From positions 1 to 36,387 of the forward strand of contig JAUWWQ010000044.1 in the NCBI GenBank assembly GCA_030616775.1: a stretch of DNA of 36,387 nt, given 5' to 3'. Source of the stretch: Planctomycetota bacterium (GTDB lineage Bacteria > Planctomycetota > Phycisphaerae > UBA1845). Shown here piece by piece: positions 28,173 to 36,387 of the stretch (position 1 is the stretch's first letter; every line of letters begins with the position of its first letter). Position numbers and translations under genes: made by a program. The notes beneath the pieces are model-generated. The model made no database searches, had not been told where the DNA came from, and was given only the letters and a program-made list of their open reading frames with translations.

Positions 28173-28234
28173 GGTACGCCGGGAGCACCGAGCCCGCCAC
28201 CCGCCGATTCGACAGGGTGAGGCAGATTACGCTG

Positions 28235-28526
28235 CTAGTACCGTGTTTCGCAAGTCTCGCGACTATCTGAGCCGCATGCTTCAGCTTGCGCGGACGTCCG
28301 CGCGGGCTTCAAGCCCGCGGATCAGGGTAGGAGCATCGTCGTACTACTCATGAAACGCCGTACTAGCTGTGCGTCGAAAGGTCGTATACCCTTACGTCAG
28401 AGCTTGTGTCAGCGTGTGGAAAGCGATGTCGCTGGACCGAGAATCCCTTCTCGGTCCTCTGGCAGGTGCCGAGAAAGGATTCTCGGCACAGCGTATAGTC
28501 GTACTAGTTGTGAAACACGGTACTAG
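28235..28526. repeat. composite inverted-repeat island upstream of kynU
   Basis: The island is bounded by perfect 15-base inverted repeats, CTAGTACCGTGTTTC (28235-28249) and GAAACACGGTACTAG (28512-28526), with a degenerate third copy near 28354-28368. Inside lie a 16-base palindrome GCGCGGACGTCCGCGC (28288-28303), a hairpin CGCGGGC-TTCAA-GCCCGCG (28301-28319) and the two-hairpin repeat copy B. A 28-base direct repeat (28399-28426 and 28525-28552, 26 of 28 identical) spans its right half. No gene is inside. Confidence 0.75.
28429..28488. repeat. dispersed two-hairpin repeat, copy B (complete)
   Basis: Hairpin 1 is GGACCGAGAA-TCCC-TTCTCGGTCC (28434-28457) and hairpin 2 is TGCCGAGAA-AGGA-TTCTCGGCA (28467-28488). 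Positions 28429-28476 match the reverse complement of copy A (14926-14973) at 47 of 48 bases. Paired hairpins of this kind are typical of REP/BIME elements. Confidence 0.8.
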
Positions 28527-28567
28527 AGCTTGGGTCAGCCTGTGGAAAGCGACGGAACAACGTAGCA

Positions 28568-29950: not shown

Positions 29951-30181
29951 CTAGACCATGATCTCGAAAACGAGCCACAGGCCGAAACCCACTGCGTACA
30001 TGCCGGCCACAATCGTAACCCACAGAACCAGGGCGGCCACAGGTACGTCGCGCAGGTTGCGGCATCGCGTCGTCTTATAAACGATCGCGATACTCAAACA
30101 GAGCGGAAGCATCAGCAGAAAACTCTGGATGCCTGTCAGCTCGATCGGCGTGGTGAACAGCCCGGCCAGCGCACTTATCAT
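29951..30181 (-). CDS. small membrane protein, third gene of FmdB operon
   Basis: This 76-residue protein has two membrane helices (about residues 19-35, FLLMLPLCLSIAIVY, and 49-75, AALVLWVTIVAGMYAVGFGLWLVF) joined by a short basic loop with RCRNLRDVP. The ATG at 30181 overlaps the previous stop codon by 4 bases, which shows translational coupling and fixes the start; a longer upstream frame is a shadow. The family is not recognised. Confidence 0.7.
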   Translation of the reverse strand: MISALAGLFTTPIELTGIQSFLLMLPLCLSIAIVYKTTRCRNLRDVPVAALVLWVTIVAGMYAVGFGLWLVFEIMV

Positions 30182-30633
30182 GGAACACCTCCGGGGTGTT
30201 CTCGCTCCTCTCGCCTCTTGGCAGACGACGGTTCTGCCCGGGCGAAGGCGTCGAATATGACCAACAGGTTCAGCAGGCCGGCAACGCCCGTATAGTGGAC
30301 CCCGACATCCACGGACGCCCAATGGGCTGTGGCTGCCGGCTTACGTCCCTCTGACTCGCCGGCAGCGATGCTGCGATGCAGAGCATAGCCCGTTAACGTG
30401 TTGCCCGCAGTGCAGACCTGGGCAATGAACCAGAGCTTTCGATTGTGGGGGTCAACCGTTGCCCGCACCCCGCCGAGGGCCACGCCTGTCCAGAAGGTCG
30501 CGGTAATGGTTATAAGGCAAACGATGCCCCGGCCGCGATCACCCAGATATAGGTGCCCCAGGCCGGGAACAAGCCATGCCAGCAGTCCGGTCACGGGCAT
30601 CCGTACTGCGGAAGTCAGTCTCTGGTTGGCCAA
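30178..30633 (-). CDS. DUF6677-like small membrane protein
   Basis: The protein of about 151 residues has hydrophobic segments and the motif LLAWLVPGLGHLYLGDRGRG near its N terminus. That motif resembles small planctomycete membrane proteins (DUF6677-like), but this is recalled, not searched. I chose a TTG start at 30633 because GGGAG precedes it by about 7 bases; an ATG at 30600 (MPVTGLLAW) is the alternative. It follows the FmdB gene by 25 bases and overlaps the next gene by 4, so the three form one leftward operon. The C terminus is charged and repetitive in E and R. Confidence 0.68.
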   Translation of the reverse strand: MANQRLTSAVRMPVTGLLAWLVPGLGHLYLGDRGRGIVCLITITATFWTGVALGGVRATVDPHNRKLWFIAQVCTAGNTLTGYALHRSIAAGESEGRKPAATAHWASVDVGVHYTGVAGLLNLLVIFDAFARAEPSSAKRREEREHPGGVP

Positions 30634-30658
30634 TTCGGTGCTCCCTCTCTGAGTCAGA

Positions 30659-30889
30659 TTACAACAACGGACATGGGCCGTTGGGGTCACTACACGTCGA
30701 GCACGGGCCGCCAGGGGAAAGGTTGGCAGGCCTCGACTCACCCTGTCCTGCTGTGAATACGCTCAACTCCCGGGCCACTTCGCTGCTTTCGCAAGCCGGA
30801 CACTTCATGGCATCCCGGTCCGATGGGGAGCGCGCCAACTCTTCAAACTCATGGTTACACGATTCACAGACGTATTCGTAGATTGGCAT
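30659..30889 (-). CDS. FmdB-family zinc ribbon protein
   Basis: This 76-residue protein starts MPIYEYVCESCNHEFEEL, the characteristic N terminus of the FmdB/CxxC_CXXC_SSSS regulatory zinc ribbon family, and has the second CxxC at CPAC (residues 30-33). A second cysteine cluster (CSTCSDPNGPC) ends the protein. Members are putative regulators; the name comes from the formamidase operon. The ATG at 30889 fixes the family start, although an open frame continues upstream to 31288. It is the first gene of the leftward three-gene operon. Confidence 0.9.
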   Translation of the reverse strand: MPIYEYVCESCNHEFEELARSPSDRDAMKCPACESSEVARELSVFTAGQGESRPANLSPGGPCSTCSDPNGPCPLL

Positions 30890-31399
30890 CGATCCACATC
30901 CCTGGTCGGTTATGTCCCGCGCCTTTCGCGGAGTATAGGCTCGGGTGAAGATGCTTTCAACAGGGCGAGGCAAACGGCCTGCACCACACCCGGGTCGCTG
31001 GACCGGTCGGCTTGCGAATCCTGGACCGGTGTTTTCGGATCGTTTGACGCTCCTCTTGTTTGGGAAAACACGTGACCACCCACCTGCCCATCGCACGCCC
31101 GCGCAACCAAGACCACCCAGCCAACGCCAAGAAGCTATCCGCCATCCGCTGCGCCAGTCCAACGTGTCGAGCTCAATCGCGCTATCTTGGACCCAAGCGA
31201 GGAAGTCCTTGCCGGATACGTGGCCGTCACTTGGACCGGCATGCACTGTGGCCAAGCGCACATGCGGCGTTACTACTCCCAGAGCCAAACAACGGCATCA
31301 GGTTTCTTCGCCGACGTCCGACCATGGTGTCCTCCTACCGCTCATAATCCTGCTCCGGAGCGGCTACACGCGTGCTCGCGCCGCGGATGATGGGCTATG
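30890..31399. other. region without an intact gene, possibly decayed coding sequence
   Basis: These 510 bases lie between the FmdB start and the protease stop. On the minus strand a strong AGGAGG precedes an ATG near 31350, but that frame stops after about 32 codons. Two other minus-strand frames carry protein-like composition in turn (about 31288-31140 and 31125-30910). This could be a frameshifted pseudogene, but no family can be named with confidence. The FmdB promoter must also lie here. Confidence 0.3.
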
Positions 31400-32332
31400 T
31401 TATCCTCCGCCACTCCTGCCTCGCCGGAATCTTGCGCGGTGGTTCTTCTGATCCACGGTGACAGCGAAGTCCTTGAGCAACCGGGAGCCGATGTTGCCGG
31501 CATCATAATCCAACATCGGTCCGAGATCGGCGAAATCGATCCGGGGCTTGGCCCATTCGTGCTTGCCGAGCTTGAGTACTCCGTCAAGCACGGCCGATCG
31601 GACTTCCGCTTCGCCCTGAGGCGTTCGAGCCATGCCCACGACATGTGGCTTACCCTTCAGGGGAAGCTTCTTCTGAAGTTTGTTTAGCAGGGTGACAAGG
31701 GCCGGAGAGCCGGTGTCCAGGTGGGCCTTGACGGGAACTCCCGCAACCGACAGCGTCATCGTCACACCGTAGTCGTGCACATTGTCTGCCGAGTACTCGA
31801 TCGTCTCGCCGTCCGGCCGCGGTAGTTCGCCGGACTCGAAACTCACGCGGCGCTCAGGGAAGTCTAGGGTGAGCAAACAACCCTTGAACAACGGCAATCC
31901 CAGAATGCCGCGGATTCCTTCGCCGGTCATGGAAACACATCCACCACTGGTCGAACGAATCCCTTGGATCGACGAGAATTCGGCGTCGCCGATTGTAAGG
32001 GTGCCAACGTCGACGATATCCAGGTCTTCCGCTTCGCCCCGTGGCCATGTCGTGCCCGTGGCGGGAAGCTTGAGTTTGTCTACAAGTGCGTCATCCAGAA
32101 CGGCTGGAAAGCTGGTCCCTGTGTCGATAAGCAGCTTGAACGGCCCCTTACCGTTGATCCGGGCCTCCACGACCGGACGGCCTCCCCAACTGTCCATCGG
32201 CACAGACACCGTTGTCGTGTGGAGCGTTGTTCGTATAGGGGCGCCCATGTAGCCGGGCTCGGTTTCTGCACGGACTGCCGTATTCGAGATCGTCAGAAGG
32301 GGCAATAGAAGCGTTACGGTTCTAATAGGCAT
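31400..32332 (-). CDS. secreted two-lobed aspartic protease (retropepsin-like repeats)
   Basis: This 310-residue protein has a signal peptide (VTLLLPLLTISNTAVRA, cleavage near residue 22). Two homologous clan AA lobes follow. Lobe one has the catalytic LLIDTGTS (Asp70) and a flap-side GILGLPLFKGCLLTLDF. Lobe two has AHLDTGSP (Asp206) and NIGSRLLKDFAVTVD. Each lobe thus has its DTG and its hydrophobic-glycine motif, so one chain could form an active site that retropepsins build from two chains. The ATG at 32332 has GAGGAG 7 bases upstream; an open frame extending to 32512 lacks such support. It is a single gene, and the substrate is unknown. Confidence 0.82.
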   Translation of the reverse strand: MPIRTVTLLLPLLTISNTAVRAETEPGYMGAPIRTTLHTTTVSVPMDSWGGRPVVEARINGKGPFKLLIDTGTSFPAVLDDALVDKLKLPATGTTWPRGEAEDLDIVDVGTLTIGDAEFSSIQGIRSTSGGCVSMTGEGIRGILGLPLFKGCLLTLDFPERRVSFESGELPRPDGETIEYSADNVHDYGVTMTLSVAGVPVKAHLDTGSPALVTLLNKLQKKLPLKGKPHVVGMARTPQGEAEVRSAVLDGVLKLGKHEWAKPRIDFADLGPMLDYDAGNIGSRLLKDFAVTVDQKNHRARFRRGRSGGG

Positions 32333-33469
32333 GGTTGCACTCCTCAATGTTTGTATAGAGTAACTATCACTACACGCAAGCGCTGGCCAGCGGCGAGTCT
32401 TGTAAAACCTTGTCGCAGAGACCATCGCACCAGAACTCGATTCCAGCACATGGACGAGTTCGCTCCATAGCCTAGAACCGGGCCTTACAGCCCTTCCCTG
32501 GCTTGAACACACTTCGTCCTTTTCCTGGACGACAGCCGACCCCGCCAGCGCTCACAACCGTGACGCAGAGTTGTCGGAATGTGTGAATATCTCAGCGATC
32601 TCGTCCCAGTGGCCATCCGTACCCTGTCAGCGAAGTCTCTCAGGGCGGTCTGGACATGGCAAGCGTCAACGCCGGGCCAAAGCGACAACGCCGACATGGG
32701 TTACGGCCAGCGCGTAAGACCAAAGTCAAGGATGTGGGGTCACTCACGCCACACGGGGGAGCGATATACGTCGTCCTACGAGGGCTCAAACCGCGTCAAC
32801 GAGCGCGCGCCGCTGAGTCGCGGTGAAGCTCCCTTTGGACAATATCATGCGGCTCGGATTGAAGAACATCGGTCGACGCGGTCGATACCCGGGTTCACTG
32901 GCGGTGCCCGATGAACGACGACTGGCATCCGTCCCCCGGACCGCATCGTTCATCCCATGCAAGAAGTCCATCGCCGGCTCCTCCCGTTCTCGGCGGACCA
33001 ACGGGTTGCCCTGCGTCTGTTCGCAGCAGCCCGTATCGCCGCCCGACGGCCATCCTAACATCAACCGAACACACTGCAAGCTCCATACGAGGGCCTTCAA
33101 CCAGATCTCTGGTGCGTTGGCCGGAGATCCCATCGTCTCCGGCCCTTTGAGCTAATAAAGTACCCGGCGCTCGTGCGGCTGTGAGCGCATTGCGAGCACC
33201 CTCGGTGCTGGTCGCCTGGGTGGCTGGGCCCAGACGCGCCATCAGACGTGAGAGGCTGCCCGGCATTCTTTGGCGGAGTGCGAGCGTCCCTCGGGCCGGG
33301 GAGTAATCTACCCCCACCTTGCAGTCGCCGTCGTGGTGCACGCAGAAGCAGCGGAAACTGCCCAAACAAAACACGAACTTCACATCCCGACTGACCGACT
33401 TGATCGTTTTCGGACCTTGCACGGCTCGCGCCAGCGAGTGTAAGTCATTTCAAATAAAGAAGACGTGAA
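32333..33469. other. 1.1-kb region without a supportable gene
   Basis: Many overlapping frames of 60-175 codons exist on both strands, but none has a ribosome binding site together with recognisable or protein-like sequence. Composition is GC-rich. It may be a decayed region at the edge of the proposed integrated element. I see no RNA gene or repeat in it. Confidence 0.4.
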
Positions 33470-33511
33470 AGCGGGCGAGCGGATTCGAACCGCCGACGTC
33501 CAGCTTGGGAA
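33470..33511 (-). other. tRNA-Gly(CCC) 3' half: probable attachment site (att)
   Basis: On the minus strand 42 bases match the 3' half of a bacterial tRNA-Gly from the anticodon loop to the discriminator: TTCCCAA loop, GCTGG stem, T arm GGCGG TTCGAAT CCGCT and acceptor CGCCCGC. Upstream of the anticodon loop the sequence no longer pairs (CTGGCT instead of the expected CCAGC), so it is not a functional tRNA. A 3' tRNA fragment starting at the anticodon loop is the usual product of tyrosine-integrase insertion into a tRNA gene. Confidence 0.65.
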
Positions 33512-33523
33512 AGCCAGAACCGC

Positions 33524-33562
33524 CCGAACGTAAGTCCAGCAATGACAGTAGTTAACGTTCGG
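33524..33562. repeat. inverted repeat beside the tRNA fragment
   Basis: CCGAACGT (33524-33531) and ACGTTCGG (33555-33562) are perfect 8-base inverted repeats, extended by TAA/TTA, around a 23-base centre. They lie 12 bases from the tRNA-Gly fragment on the proposed element side and could be recombinase arm-type sites. Confidence 0.45.
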
Positions 33563-33894
33563 TGGCAAAAGGGCTTAGCGTGTGTCTCGGTACTGGCACC
33601 AGAACTGATTTCGGACTGTTTGTAGGCTGTTTTGGACACAACTTTGACACAACTCTCGTGCCTCTCGTCTCAGGCGATACTCCCTGTTGCTGCATGCCGA
33701 TCAACGCAAAAGCCACCGGGTGCCAATGGTTGGCGGCGATCCAGGGTAAACAGCATATCGAGCGGGGGTGCAGCGTATCCGCAGCCGGTACGGCGGGACG
33801 GCCCCGGCTGTGTGAACTGCGACTCTGTCTAGAAGATGCAGACTCCAGGCCCCGCTGGAGTGTCCAGGCTTCGAAGCAGACCGTCAAGGATACT
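33563..33894. other. intergenic region next to proposed att site
   Basis: No intact gene is visible. A minus-strand frame (33887-33552) ends near the att site with a basic tail (RVVSKLCPKQPTNSPKS) that could be the end of a decayed integrase, but no integrase motif is present, so this is only a suggestion. Confidence 0.3.
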
Positions 33895-34101
33895 CTAGCG
33901 TCGCTCGTAGCGGTCGCAGTCGTTCTCCTCGTACAAGAGTTGCTCCAAGATATTCAGATCGTCGTATTCTCGCTCCGAAATGGTGTCCCCACCGAGGCAG
34001 TTGGACAAGAGACCCCCGAGGAGGTCAATCGGACAGCCTTGGAACACTACGGAGCCAAGGCTCACCACGGCGACCACCGACCAGCGTATCGTACGTCGCA
34101 T
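33895..34101 (-). CDS. small lipoprotein
   Basis: This 68-residue protein has a lipoprotein signal (MRRTIRWSVVAVVSLGSVVFQGC, lipobox FQGC with Cys23). A short mature part rich in acidic residues follows (ISEREYDDLNILEQLLYEENDCDRYERR), with two further cysteines. The ATG at 34101 has AGGAG 8 bases upstream, which selects it over the longer frame reaching 34503. No family is recognised. It is probably anchored to a membrane face. Confidence 0.65.
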   Translation of the reverse strand: MRRTIRWSVVAVVSLGSVVFQGCPIDLLGGLLSNCLGGDTISEREYDDLNILEQLLYEENDCDRYERR

Positions 34102-34612
34102 CACAAGTTCTCCTTGAGAAGCCGTCTCTTGGGACAGGTCAGCTCGGCCCGGATTATCGTGAAGAATGGAGCCGCCGTCGACAGTAATCAAAGAAGCCGG
34201 ATGACCCACACGTGTGCTCGGATCGATCCTGGTTCTCCCAGGGTCGCCGCCATCCGTGCGAATGACCATGCTGCGGGAGGAGCTGATCAAGATCGGGGCG
34301 AAGGTGGTCCAGCACTCCAAGTGCCCGTGGTGGAGAAATTGCGTTGAGAGAGCGAGACTGAGTTCGCTGTTCCTGGCAAAGTGGGCACTTGTGGCCCTGG
34401 TTGACCTGCTTCCGTCCCATCGATACGATCTCCTGGGTGTCGAAAGCGACCAACAATCGCTGGGCCGGGCACTGGCTTGACGGTCCACATGGAACCCAGA
34501 CAAGAATACACCCGACAGTCGTCGGAATCAGGTGTTGTTGCGAATCATGGAGATATTCAGGTAGCTGCGTAAGCTAGTCTGAGACATTCCACATCATTAA
34601 GGAGTCCCTCTG
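34102..34612. other. divergent intergenic region, no gene seen
   Basis: These 511 bases separate the two divergent lipoprotein genes and must hold their promoters. The open frames crossing it are extensions or shadows without ribosome binding sites. Confidence 0.4.
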
Positions 34613-34963
34613 ATGTTGACACGATTGAGCAACTGGCGGACCTGTTGGCTGGTTGGATCAATGGTCTTGATTGCTGTAACCGGTTGCCGGAAGGAGGAAC
34701 CCGAAAAAGAGCAGCCAGCGAGCGATGCCAAAGTCAGGGTAAAGATTGTAGAGGCCAAGCTTGCCAAGGCTGACCAGGTGGACGGCACCACCGACAAGAT
34801 TGTGTCCAAGTGCCCAGCCTGTGAGCTAGCTATGGACGGCAAGAGTGAACATGCTCTGCAAGTCTCGGGCTACACGCTCCACTTCTGCAGCGAGAAGTGT
34901 AAGACGGAGTTCGAGAAGGACACGACGAAGTCCATCCTGGACCTGAAGATCCCGGAAGACTAA
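34613..34963 (+). CDS. lipoprotein with YHS/TRASH-like metal-binding motif
   Basis: The 116-residue protein has a lipoprotein signal ending in AVTGC (Cys25), a charged linker (26-62) and a C-terminal cysteine motif: KCPACELAMDG (Cys67, Cys70) and FCSEKCKTEF (Cys92, Cys96), with His80 and His90 nearby. The arrangement CxxC...HFCSxxC resembles YHS and TRASH domains, which bind copper, zinc or other soft metals. A periplasmic metal-sensing or chaperone role is an inference. The ATG at 34613 has AGGAG 8 bases upstream. No metal-transport gene is adjacent. Confidence 0.8.
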   Translation: MLTRLSNWRTCWLVGSMVLIAVTGCRKEEPEKEQPASDAKVRVKIVEAKLAKADQVDGTTDKIVSKCPACELAMDGKSEHALQVSGYTLHFCSEKCKTEFEKDTTKSILDLKIPED

Positions 34964-35273
34964 CGCTTGTGATCGCTGAGGCGGAGTGACGGTCATCAGG
35001 GCGTCAGCGTGACCGTCAGCCGGCATCGACCTCACACCAGCGGCCCAACCGGCCCAACCAGCCCGGCACCCCGTGTCTATGCTCATCGAGGGCGATTCCG
35101 ATGGGCCGGACATGGTATGGCGACTCGGAAACCGGCCCACCGAGCTGGACGGTCTTATGCCGTTGCCAGGTACCCAGGCCGAGGGTTTGACCGCTGCCTG
35201 ACTCTCCACTTCTGTGGTCCAACCGTACTATACCATATGGTATAGGCACACTCTGGGGGAGGACCTCAGAACA
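34964..35273. other. intergenic region with palindrome
   Basis: About 310 bases between the convergent YHS lipoprotein and the leftward regulator-like gene contain no supported gene. The notable feature is the 18-base palindrome at 35228-35245. Confidence 0.4.
35228..35245. promoter_or_regulatory. 18-bp perfect palindrome, possible operator
   Basis: CTATACCATATGGTATAG is a perfect palindrome of 18 bases, 28 bases downstream of the leftward RHH-like gene's stop. Its length and AT-rich centre suit binding of a dimeric regulator. No gene start is close on either strand, so its target is unclear. Confidence 0.4.
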
Positions 35274-35516
35274 TTAGGATTCCACGGGCTTGGGGCCCAT
35301 TTCCGCCAGCTTCTCAGCGGTTAGGGGTTCGAGGTTGTAGGCTTCCATGTTCTTGGCAACCAGAAGGCCGATCAGGTCGACGATGCTCAGGTTGAGCTTC
35401 TCGGAAAGCCTGCGAATGTTGTACCAGTCATGCTCCCGGACGTTGATGGGGTGGTAGGGGGTCCTCCGGGTTCCCTTCTTTCCACGGGAGTGATAGACAC
35501 GGTTGAGACCAGGCAT
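35274..35516 (-). CDS. ribbon-helix-helix-like small DNA-binding protein
   Basis: This 80-residue protein has a basic N terminus (RVYHSRGKKGTRRTPYH). Residues 23-58 (INVREHDWYNIRRLSEKLNLSIVDLIGLLVAKNMEAY) fit a ribbon-helix-helix pattern: a beta strand, a first helix with IRRLSEKL, a turn at NLS, and a second helix VDLIGLLVAKNM. Such proteins bind operators as dimers and often regulate themselves or toxin-antitoxin or partition genes. The ATG at 35516 has no clear ribosome binding site. A good leftward promoter with an embedded dyad lies about 100 bases upstream. No toxin partner is visible. Confidence 0.55.
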   Translation of the reverse strand: MPGLNRVYHSRGKKGTRRTPYHPINVREHDWYNIRRLSEKLNLSIVDLIGLLVAKNMEAYNLEPLTAEKLAEMGPKPVES

Positions 35517-35611
35517 GATGGATTACGGTGGGGTAAGGGGGGAAACCTTCACATCCCCTGACTATCTACATCTCCTAGCTATATATAATCAGTAACTATC
35601 TTCATCTACTT

Positions 35612-35640
35612 ATTATTGACACATGATATGATTATGTCAA
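35612..35640 (-). promoter_or_regulatory. leftward promoter with embedded dyad operator
   Basis: On the minus strand TTGACA (35640-35635), a 17-base spacer and AATAAT (35617-35612) form a near-consensus sigma70 promoter. TTGACA at 35616-35621 on the plus strand mirrors the -35 hexamer, so an interrupted dyad (35616-35640) spans the promoter, as expected for an operator. It lies in the most AT-rich stretch of the window and faces the RHH-like gene. Confidence 0.5.
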
Positions 35641-36025
35641 GCGGATTCTTTGGGTCCCGGAGAGTGCTCCAGCGGCTTCGTGGACAGGCGGACGATGCGG
35701 ACGGTCTGTTGCATACTCTTGGGGAAGAAGGCTTGTGGGGACTCACGATCTTGGGGTCCGTCCGGGCAGGGGCTATGCCTCCACGAGGTAAGCTTACGGG
35801 GCTACTCCTCAAGGAGCCGATGAGGTTACCCTTGGACGGCTTGGTCACATGCACGAAAGATACCGCAATCATCGTCCGCACCGTCCGCAGCCTAATCTGC
35901 TGGTTGGCCTGCATGGAATGGTCCACGCGAGTTCCTGACGACGATGACCCGGCGATCCAATATGGCGTCCCGATCGTCCGGGATAATCGAGTGATCGTTG
36001 CTATAATTGCAGGGAATTGAGTGTG
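35641..36025. other. region with only doubtful open frames
   Basis: Opposing frames of 134 codons (plus, 35616-36020) and 106 codons (minus, 35926-35606) cover this stretch. Neither has a ribosome binding site or recognisable domain, and at most one can be real. I annotate no gene here. Confidence 0.35.
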
Positions 36026-36054
36026 TTGACAGGACTTGTTCAGGTTCTTATAAT
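36026..36054 (+). promoter_or_regulatory. perfect-consensus sigma70 promoter
   Basis: TTGACA (36026-36031), a 17-base spacer and TATAAT (36049-36054) match the sigma70 consensus at all twelve positions with optimal spacing. Transcription would begin near 36061, giving a 36-base leader before the ATG at 36097. Confidence 0.75.
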
Positions 36055-36096
36055 CGTTCCGTTGCCTGGGGAGGTTCCTTTTCAGGAGAACAAATC

Positions 36097-36249
36097 ATGC
36101 GCTGGACACGCTCGGCAATAGTTGCCATCGTAGGTTACTCGTCGGTGTTTTGCCCGGACCGGGCAGAAGGTCACCCGATTACGTTCCAGTTTGCGGGAGA
36201 GATTACGTATGTCAGGGATGATGACGACCTGCTATTGATCTTTGAGTAG
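36097..36249 (+). pseudogene. truncated exported protein, PEP-CTERM-like N terminus
   Basis: The frame encodes 50 residues: a signal peptide (MRWTRSAIVAIVGYSSVFCPDRAEG) and then ITFQFAGEITYVRDDDDLL. The latter resembles the first beta strands of the extracellular domain in PEP-CTERM exosortase-substrate proteins, after which several hundred residues would be expected. Instead it ends after LLLIFE at a TAG. AGGAG lies 8 bases before the ATG and a perfect promoter precedes it, so this was an expressed gene. The stop lies at the presumed end of an IS630-like element, which probably interrupted it. Confidence 0.6.
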
Positions 36250-36262
36250 ATAAATAAACGCT

Positions 36263-36387
36263 TCATAGTCTGAGTCCGGCATGGTGGAAGAACGAGCGCA
36301 ACATCTGCTGGTCTGTGCTGATCTGATCGAGGGAGGCGATGACCTCATCGGCGAGCGCGCCGGCATCGTCCGGGATGTAGTTGGCCA
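36263..36387 (-). mobile_element. IS630-like transposase, C-terminal fragment
   Basis: The last 40 codons of a leftward gene are visible, cut by the window edge. The sequence ANYIPDDAGALADEV...LRSFFHHAGLRL resembles the end of IS630-family DDE transposases (LANxxPD...FLxHxGLxL). The stop is about 14-30 bases from the point where the PEP-CTERM-like gene loses its reading frame, a normal distance from a transposase stop to an IS630 terminus. IS630 elements insert at TA, and TA dinucleotides occur at 36233-36234 and 36247-36248. Confidence 0.5.

Follow-up and report, generated by a model that had tools for sequence, protein, structure and literature searches.

The window analysed here, which is the entire contig C41 (36,387 b) of a 108-contig draft genome, was found to contain the 3′ half of a tRNA-Gly(CCC) gene, which very probably represents a scar marking one end of an inserted element. 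We hold with considerable confidence that this half was displaced by a tyrosine-recombinase element in a tandem array, and that the anticodon loop is used from both sides throughout the order. The tRNA-Gly(CCC) gene is an integration hub of the order, with elements on both sides of the gene.

The half was found to be identical to a part of the genome's own intact tRNA-Gly(CCC) gene (42/42), as expected of an integrative element of the tRNA-targeted tyrosine-recombinase kind, and was not called as a tRNA gene by ARAGORN or by Rfam (gathering threshold). The source genome contained one intact tRNA-Gly(CCC) gene on contig C33 and three 42/42 3′ halves, one in the window and two on contig C90 (E 2.1e-15 each). 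The identity among all four copies was found to start at one common base of the anticodon loop (nt 31). A chance origin of the window half is excluded because of the two further 42/42 copies and the common start base. A preliminary description of the window had proposed a lone attachment-site half with a crossover at the anticodon loop; the piece does look like an attachment-site half beside a recombinase-arm-like flank, and the start base shared by the four copies agrees with the proposed crossover, but the half is not lone, as two identical halves are present on C90. Since the window is the whole contig, its right side stops at the contig break (36387). The features of the window are given in Table 1.

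Table 1. Features found in and around the displaced tRNA-Gly(CCC) half of the window
Feature	Position	Strand	Evidence
Aspartyl-protease gene, left flank	31400..32512	-	PF13650, 63.9 bits; 89% over 1187 nt in G002
Sequence beyond the half, perhaps the decayed arm of an adjacent element	33440..33469	-	Resembles the flank of the half at C90:31413
tRNA-Gly(CCC) 3′ half (nt 31-72), displaced attachment-site half	33470..33511	-	100% over 42 nt to C33:13095-13166
Shared core TTCCCAAG, anticodon loop plus one base, putative crossover region	33504..33511	-	Four-copy identity begins there
Right-hand recombinase arm (attR arm) of the element	33512..33720	-	Arm matches in G015 and G025; partial matches in relatives
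Distal part of integrated element, cut by the contig end (putative extent)	33512..36387		3′-half polarity 23/23; arm match
8-bp inverted repeat CCGAACGT (33524-33531) / ACGTTCGG (33555-33562) beside the core	33524..33562		By eye
Tandem 11-nt direct repeat TTGGACACAAC/TTTGACACAAC, candidate arm-type site	33632..33653	-	Repeat scan
Lipoprotein-like ORF, weak YHS/metal-binding similarity	34613..34963	+	YHS 21.5 bits; Pfam cut-off 30.3
Small basic ORF, RHH-like in the preliminary description	35274..35516	-	No family match
IS-like repeat near the contig end	36229..36358		98-99% copies at three other places in the genome

The element had been predicted at higher coordinates, and the right flank was indeed found to resemble the recombinase arms beside tRNA-Gly halves of two other genera. 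The 250-nt arm of the window matched three ends in G015 and one end in G025 (0/200 shuffles each), and the match was weaker for the other 18 of the 22 ends compared. Partial matches of 81-88% were present in four relatives. The similar arms in G017, G042 and G032 are followed by different sequences, and no tRNA was found beside them by Rfam (up to E 1). The word GTTGTGTC of the direct repeat is also repeated beside the recombinase gene on C90. The perfect inverted repeat described earlier beside the site is present, but it is only 8 bp long and the adjacent direct repeat is stronger; a repeat scan with a minimum length of 9 listed no inverted repeat beside the core. The sequence on the other side of the half was found to resemble that at C90:31413 with 85% over 72 nt including the core, the flank alone giving 2/200 shuffles.

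No recombinase gene was found within the window, and recombinase queries against positions 30000-36387 matched only the tRNA-antisense tail, followed by a best E of 0.017 elsewhere. A candidate for the predicted integrase is present on a separate contig of the genome as a tyrosine recombinase gene (C90:36213-37532; PF00589, 52.0 bits, cut-off 27.1), which was assigned to the window by arm match, and its ORF was found to overlap one 3′ half and to run across it. The same contig contained a methylase frame (C90:33182-35599) as one open frame. No phage structural genes were found among 9 selected C41 and C90 proteins scanned with PHROGs, and no relative of the C90 recombinase was found in a scan of viral contigs.

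Arms were compared by pairwise alignment in place of a fixed-word motif count, which is uninformative because the words vary between elements. The left arm of C90:36292 and the right arm of C41 were found to score 29, followed by 26 and 25 for the best other pairings and 23 for C33-C41. Re-paired ends were as good as the ends of one unit in 30/5000 re-pairings for the 5′ type and in 3/5000 for the 3′ type; adjacent end pairs are not always the best-matching ones, and for several ends the true partner stands midway or at the bottom of the ranking. Judged by its arm, the element of the window probably begins at the C90 recombinase gene, and its far end would therefore be another 3′ half (C90:36292) in a tandem array, an arrangement that also follows from the three 3′ halves in the genome. 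The margin of the C90-C41 score is small (29 vs 26). The array order is most likely C33(-), C90(+), C41(-). No overlap was found among the ends of contigs C33, C90 and C41, the C41 half is not joined on any contig with a recombinase or an intact tRNA gene, and synteny with G002 is too rearranged to place the contigs. The intact tRNA-Gly expected by the preliminary description at the far end is present elsewhere in the genome, but the arm match places the C90 half there; the intact gene as the direct far end is not favoured.

Eighty genomes of the order, probably Phycisphaerales, were surveyed for tRNA-Gly(CCC) halves, and were found to contain 53 listed 3′ halves (32/80 genomes) and 22 listed 5′ halves (15/80 genomes), these counts including halves without any requirement for a recombinase. 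On contigs that also carry the intact gene, the 3′ halves were found downstream on the same strand in 23/23 cases. The 5′ halves were upstream on the same strand in 10/11 cases, with element DNA at the intact gene as expected of 5′-half-restoring elements, in the relatives only; the exception, G076:C16:96993, departs in both strand and side. The 3′ halves were found to start at nt 31 in 32 of the 53 listed and the 5′ halves to end at nt 37-38 in 14 of the 22 listed, with the core TTCCCAAG as the meeting point of the two kinds. Several genomes contained three or four halves of one kind. For the control tRNA-Cys, the same set of 80 genomes gave 6 rows of 3′ halves and none that is clearly a 5′ half.

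The left-flank protease gene is present in the congener G002, where the surrounding 20 kb that were read contained no tRNA-Gly fragment; a recombinase is present beside the intact tRNA-Gly of G002, yet no 3′ half was listed. In G000 the DNA upstream of the tRNA looks derived from an element, yet no 5′ half was listed there. The preliminary description had named as contrary evidence an identical fragment in relatives that lack any insertion; no such case was seen, and the fragment of the congener G001 adjoins the arm of the C90 elements.

A recombinase gene or fragment was found within 1.5 kb on the 3′ side of 13 and on the 5′ side of 6 of the 21 intact loci read. The 3′-away and 5′-side recombinases form separate branches, each fully supported. 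On the 5′ side, 5 intact genes are preceded by open frames of 421-468 aa whose ends lie 35-62 nt upstream, and an open frame of 429 aa was found 47 nt upstream of one 5′ half; a recombinase was absent from 10/10 fully read 5′-type units. At three intact genes, the recombinase ORF was found to end within the tRNA antisense strand with the tail ...DVQLGKLAFYH. This overlap is confined to some 3′-side recombinases and was found for none of the open frames of the 3′-away and 5′-side groups.

In four genomes (G028, G023, G072 and G044), a native-like promoter was found 16-27 nt ahead of the outermost 5′ half, and the intact tRNA-Gly(CCC) genes of these genomes contained different upstream DNA. These are 4 of the 14 genomes with a 5′ half read, the promoter calls being promoter-like hexamers only, scored without a shuffled control. 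The native-like promoter of G021 was found both at the intact gene and at an upstream partial copy (nt 1-30), which looks like a duplication rather than an element. Judging from the sequences, one kind of element seems to part the tRNA gene from its own promoter and to give it a new upstream region, and transcription may then proceed from element promoters.

The DNA to the right of the half had been described as accessory, with small lipoproteins, an RHH-like regulator and an IS. One lipoprotein-like ORF was found, its YHS match being under the cut-off, and the supposed regulator matched nothing in Pfam (up to E 0.1) or in PHROGs (up to E 0.01). The repeat at the right end is compatible with an IS, but a transposase was not shown. 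The accessory character was likewise not shown, as the lipoprotein gene has DNA matches of 73-79% in both congeners, G001 and G002, and in G002 it lies >1 Mb from tRNA-Gly. Together with the poor synteny with G002 and the ORFs scanned to the right, in which no clear mobility family (Pfam) or phage family (PHROGs) was found, this would suit an element that has been lost or rearranged away, so that 33512-36387 is now mostly ordinary chromosome and an IS. We consider such a loss unlikely, because the first ~200 nt to the right of the core are still an element-type arm with direct repeats, and this arm matches the arm beside the C90 recombinase.

Partial tRNA copies exist in prokaryotes, and the G021 copy may be of such a kind; tRNA gene fragments are the subject of PMC9897764. 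For the window half, a plain tRNA pseudogene formed by duplication or truncation, without site-specific recombination, was rejected as very improbable, in view of the exact common start at the anticodon loop at four places in the genome, the far fewer halves of tRNA-Cys, and the strict polarity in relatives where testable, the break points and orientations of the halves not being random; recombinase genes also adjoin many halves. Even less credit is given to an assembly or binning artefact that joined the half to wrong flanks. The draft assembly comprises 108 contigs, and a repeat lies at the end of this one, but the half is 2.9 kb inside the contig, 42 nt are short for a misjoin, and the right flank is of the arm type found beside halves in other genera.

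Under the preferred reading, that of a half displaced by an element, a tyrosine-recombinase element would have crossed over in the anticodon loop and left window positions 33470-33511 as the displaced 3′ half, the 3′ half of its attP would have completed the tRNA gene (or an earlier half) at the opposite end, and the window half would be one junction of the tandem array. The 3′-side elements would restore the 3′ half and carry the recombinase gene at the tRNA 3′ end. The 5′-side elements would restore the 5′ half with a divergent recombinase gene just upstream, and after their insertion the native promoter would remain at the outermost, dead 5′ half. We tentatively extend this to a proposal that is possible rather than probable, in which tRNA-Gly(CCC) would be an order-wide shared two-sided landing and storage site, distinct recombinase clades would use one 7-8 bp core from opposite sides and build cassette arrays of cargo units, most of which would have no recombinase of their own and be moved in trans, and each 5′-side insertion would swap the tRNA promoter, so that the gain or loss of elements would be tied to the decoding of GGG codons.

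Two-sided integration may account for orphan halves of tRNA genes in the group's draft genomes. The loci are natural aligned material for asking why the 5′ side is normally spared when elements integrate into tRNA genes, what lets a tRNA gene tolerate a replaced promoter, and how recombinase-free cargo units spread. Cargo units at tRNA genes, some without a recombinase of their own, are also known as tycheposons and related tRNA-flanked elements, and the cargo units proposed here would be of a comparable kind.

The Islander class A islands, as described in PMC4383910, are alike in the tyrosine recombinase, the anticodon-loop crossover, the intact gene at one end, the displaced half at the other end, the tandem arrays, and some integrases that extend across attP. 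That survey of tRNA-integrated genomic islands, in which a recombinase was demanded per island, reports a 5′ fragment in 159/3919 islands and 4 tandems of three or more, whereas 5′ halves are frequent in the present set (15/80 genomes, 22 listed rows), three or four halves of one kind recur in several genomes, and a recombinase was not demanded. Integrase genes running across attP are named there for Mx8 and SSV (PMC4383910); the recombinase ORF ending in the tRNA antisense strand is alike, but only some 3′-side recombinases do so here. The pTN3-type integrases of Thermococcales are described as using the tRNA 5′ half, so that element DNA drives expression of the gene after its restoration (PMC8371274), and the 5′-side elements found here would use the same half; pTN3 is an archaeal element, whereas here 5′- and 3′-restoring elements share one bacterial tRNA gene. 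According to that review, the use of the 5′ half is seldom met in bacteria, and with very few exceptions bacterial tRNA genes retain their original promoter when restored (PMC8371274). Promoter replacement, the opposite of this rule, appears recurrent across the order, on a gene with the usual outcome too. Literature searches on tRNA islands of Planctomycetes and Phycisphaerae, and on 5′-side or two-sided tRNA islands, brought up nothing to the point. Insertion on the 5′ side is already known and is rare in bacteria; the common two-sided array on one tRNA gene varies this known pattern in a new way.

The 42-base 3' half of tRNA-Gly noticed in the window in the preliminary description was borne out as a 42-nt match to nt 31-72 of tRNA-Gly(CCC), in the query genome G000, a 108-contig draft of 4.45 Mb in which the window comprises all of contig C41. 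The intact gene was found on contig C33 and two further 3' halves on contig C90. When the four places of G000 were aligned, the common block was found to begin at one base, the first of TTCCCAAG, and to stop at the tRNA 3' end. The window feature belongs to a known kind, very probably one end of a tRNA-integrated island with a 3' fragment.

tRNA-Gly(CCC) copies and associated unit in the query genome (L numbers denote the stretches read)
Feature	Position	Strand	Stretch
3' half in the window	C41:33470-33511	-	
Intact tRNA-Gly(CCC)	C33:13095-13166	-	
3' half, 42/42 copy	C90:31413-31454	+	
3' half, 42/42 copy	C90:36292-36333	+	
4.8-kb unit separating the two C90 halves	C90:31455-36291		L018, L019

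A tyrosine recombinase gene (L019:2213-3532; PF00589, 52.0 bits) had its end antisense to the C90:36292 half, its open frame reading ...GERIRTADVQLG... across the half. Two named relatives of this recombinase come from Phycisphaerales bacterium MAGs, and the order of the 80 compared genomes is therefore probably Phycisphaerales. The 4.8-kb unit was found to contain a spore-photoproduct-lyase-like gene (PF20903) and an 805-residue ORF (C90:33182-35599, a single open frame), the right part of which matches Eco57I methylase (PF07669); PF00589 and iterated-profile searches gave no recombinase of its own. No PF00589 match was found in the window or on C33.

The 250 nt to the right of the window core (the putative crossover region in the anticodon loop) matched the arms, or core flanks, of four halves, three from G015 and one from G025 (0/200 shuffles each), and the remaining 18 of the 22 ends compared with the window arm were below that level in mono-nucleotide shuffles. 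The window arm contained an adjacent direct repeat at 33632-33653, and its GTTGTGTC word was also repeated next to the C90 recombinase. In the pairing of left and right arms, C90:36292 with C41 scored 29 (best alternatives for these arms, 25 and 26) and C33 with C90:31413 scored 51, followed by 47, presumably for the second C90 half, and 33. These scores suggest the contig order C33(-), C90(+), C41(-); the ends of the three contigs were found to share no common sequence, and the order is therefore one that we infer. An element to the right of the window half, with the intact tRNA at its far end, had been predicted; the arm-like right flank agrees with such an element, whereas the C33-C41 arm score of 23, against 29 for C90:36292 with C41, does not favour C33 as the direct partner. 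Elsewhere in the window, 28225-28532 contained intergenic repeats of about 100-130 nt, partly inverted, which recur dozens of times in G000 and are also present in G001 and G002.

Of the 80 genomes, 8 carried the right arm found at the C90 elements and 5, with G000 and G038 among them, the window arm. The C90-type arm adjoined a tRNA-Gly 3' half in G001 and G033, and in four further matches read the tRNA-Gly core was found alongside in G008, G050 and G014 (a short remnant) and in decayed form in G027. The window-like arms read in G017, G042 and G032 were followed by other sequences, not by tRNA-Gly(CCC). In L083-L086, the four that run on among these window-like arms (L083-L087), the arm was followed by GCGTGAGC and then by differing flanks, which suggests a related family of elements with a different or less strict target.

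With the intact tRNA as query, matches were found in 72 of the 80 genomes, G000 included. Of the 150 matches listed, 62 (from 59 genomes) were intact genes, 53 (from 32 genomes) were 3' halves and 22 (from 15 genomes) were 5' halves; a further 12 were less similar full-length tRNAs and 1 was unclassed. Both kinds of half were found in 8 genomes. Among the same matches, the 3' halves started at nt 31 in 32/53 cases (the others at 24-30), and the 5' halves ended at nt 37-38 in 14/22 (the others at 30, 39, 41, 42, 43 and 47). For listed halves that share a contig with an intact gene, 23/23 3' halves lay downstream of that gene and 10/11 5' halves upstream, all of these on its strand (the exception being G076:C16:96993), counts that leave out 30 3' halves and 11 5' halves without an intact gene on their draft contigs. 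tRNA-Cys, the single control tRNA, gave 6 3'-half rows in 5 of the same 80 genomes and no clear 5' half, a G020 row of nt 1-59 being cut by the contig end.

Twenty-one intact loci were read, some with short flanks (none upstream in G036, less than 200 nt downstream in G027 and G072), and a tyrosine recombinase gene or fragment was found at a distance of up to 1.5 kb on the 3' side in 13/21 (that of G064 a 136-residue piece) and on the 5' side in 6/21, one being a C33 remnant. Three arrangements were present: on the 3' side aimed at the tRNA, overlapping it in some cases (with the C-terminal ...DVQLGKLAFYH in G015, G066 and G021); on the 3' side aimed away; and on the 5' side aimed away, the open frame starting 35-62 nt from the tRNA at five intact genes. 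Distances refer to stop-to-stop frames rather than start codons. A tree of 31 proteins placed the six 3'-away rows in one branch (100/100), as it did the six 5'-side rows together with one protein adjoining such a gene (100/100), and the 3'-toward rows were split over more than one group; the program warned that long-branch joins may be false, and only the branches themselves were used. In G066 and G050, and in G064 if its fragment is counted, recombinases flanked one tRNA gene on both sides.

The C33 remnant (C33:13287-13583, L017), an N-terminal piece of a 5'-side recombinase directly upstream of the intact tRNA, shared 75% identity with the G044 protein of that type over 99 residues, so that insertion from the 5' side has apparently also taken place at the tRNA-Gly of G000 itself. 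The 5' half expected with it was absent from G000 among the matches listed. In the whole G000 genome, 11/21 PF00589 matches were located no more than about 1.2 kb from a tRNA gene (contigs C22, C35, C36 with two, C8, C31, C12, C48, C15, C107 and C56), and tRNA targeting therefore extends well beyond tRNA-Gly. A recombinase fragment and a tRNA open both C15:18-481 and C48:18-481, at identical coordinates and with differing tRNA scores, perhaps as two versions of one tRNA-element junction.

Upstream of the intact genes of G027, G033, G002 and G021, promoter-like hexamers TTGACC-16/17-GATAAT or GATACT were found, ending 27 nt before the tRNA, and were taken as the putative native promoter. The outermost 5' halves of G028, G023, G072 (contig C253) and G044, 4/14 genomes with a 5' half read, were preceded by native-like TTGACC/TTGACG and GATAAT ending 16-27 nt upstream, and the intact genes of these genomes had different DNA upstream. 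The native-like signal was absent from the upstream regions of G076, G015, G060, G050, G064, G034 and G011; in G056, G066 and G052 a TTGAC hexamer was visible by eye yet unpicked by the scan. In G021 the signal was present twice, at the intact gene and at a partial copy of nt 1-30 farther upstream that resembles a duplication. In raw counts without a shuffled control, the best pair of 43 upstream regions was found at 16-27 nt with native words in 9 and at 84-91 nt in 12 (among them G076, G015, G060, G034 and G028:197), and was scattered in the rest. A 5'-type insertion would thus strand the native promoter beside a dead 5' half.

Arms at the two ends of one unit were compared for 5'-type and 3'-type units. 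The summed arm similarity of 13 adjacent 5'-type pairs on the same contig was matched by 30/5000 re-pairings and that of 11 3'-type pairs by 3/5000; individual pairs varied, G076:32829-39601 coming 9th of 11 when ranked against the rights and last against the lefts, and G038:9516-24939 8th of 10. A recombinase was found in 0/10 fully read 5'-type units of 2-26 kb (iterated profile, ORFs of at least 70 residues, E <1e-3), and at the tRNA end of the G060, G066 and G050 units, read at their ends only; 4/11 3'-type units had their own gene or fragment. Among ten proteins scanned from the G023 and G028 5'-type units were a peptidase, a sigma factor, a dehydrogenase, regulators and a protein of the beta-lactamase family, but no recombinase. 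The 5'-type units without a recombinase may be decayed or may have moved in trans.

In Table 1 of the Islander survey, 3760/3919 islands contained a 3' fragment and 159/3919 a 5' fragment, and the survey gives tandems of three or more as 4 (PMC4383910). According to a review, the restored bacterial tRNA gene retains its original promoter in all but very few cases, and the 5' half is used by pTN3-type archaeal integrases (PMC8371274). Searches of open-licence papers gave no prior description of a two-sided tRNA hub. Anticodon-loop islands with a 3' fragment are the standard arrangement, the same as that of the window feature; the order-wide two-sided tRNA-Gly hub is, as judged from sequence comparison, a variant.
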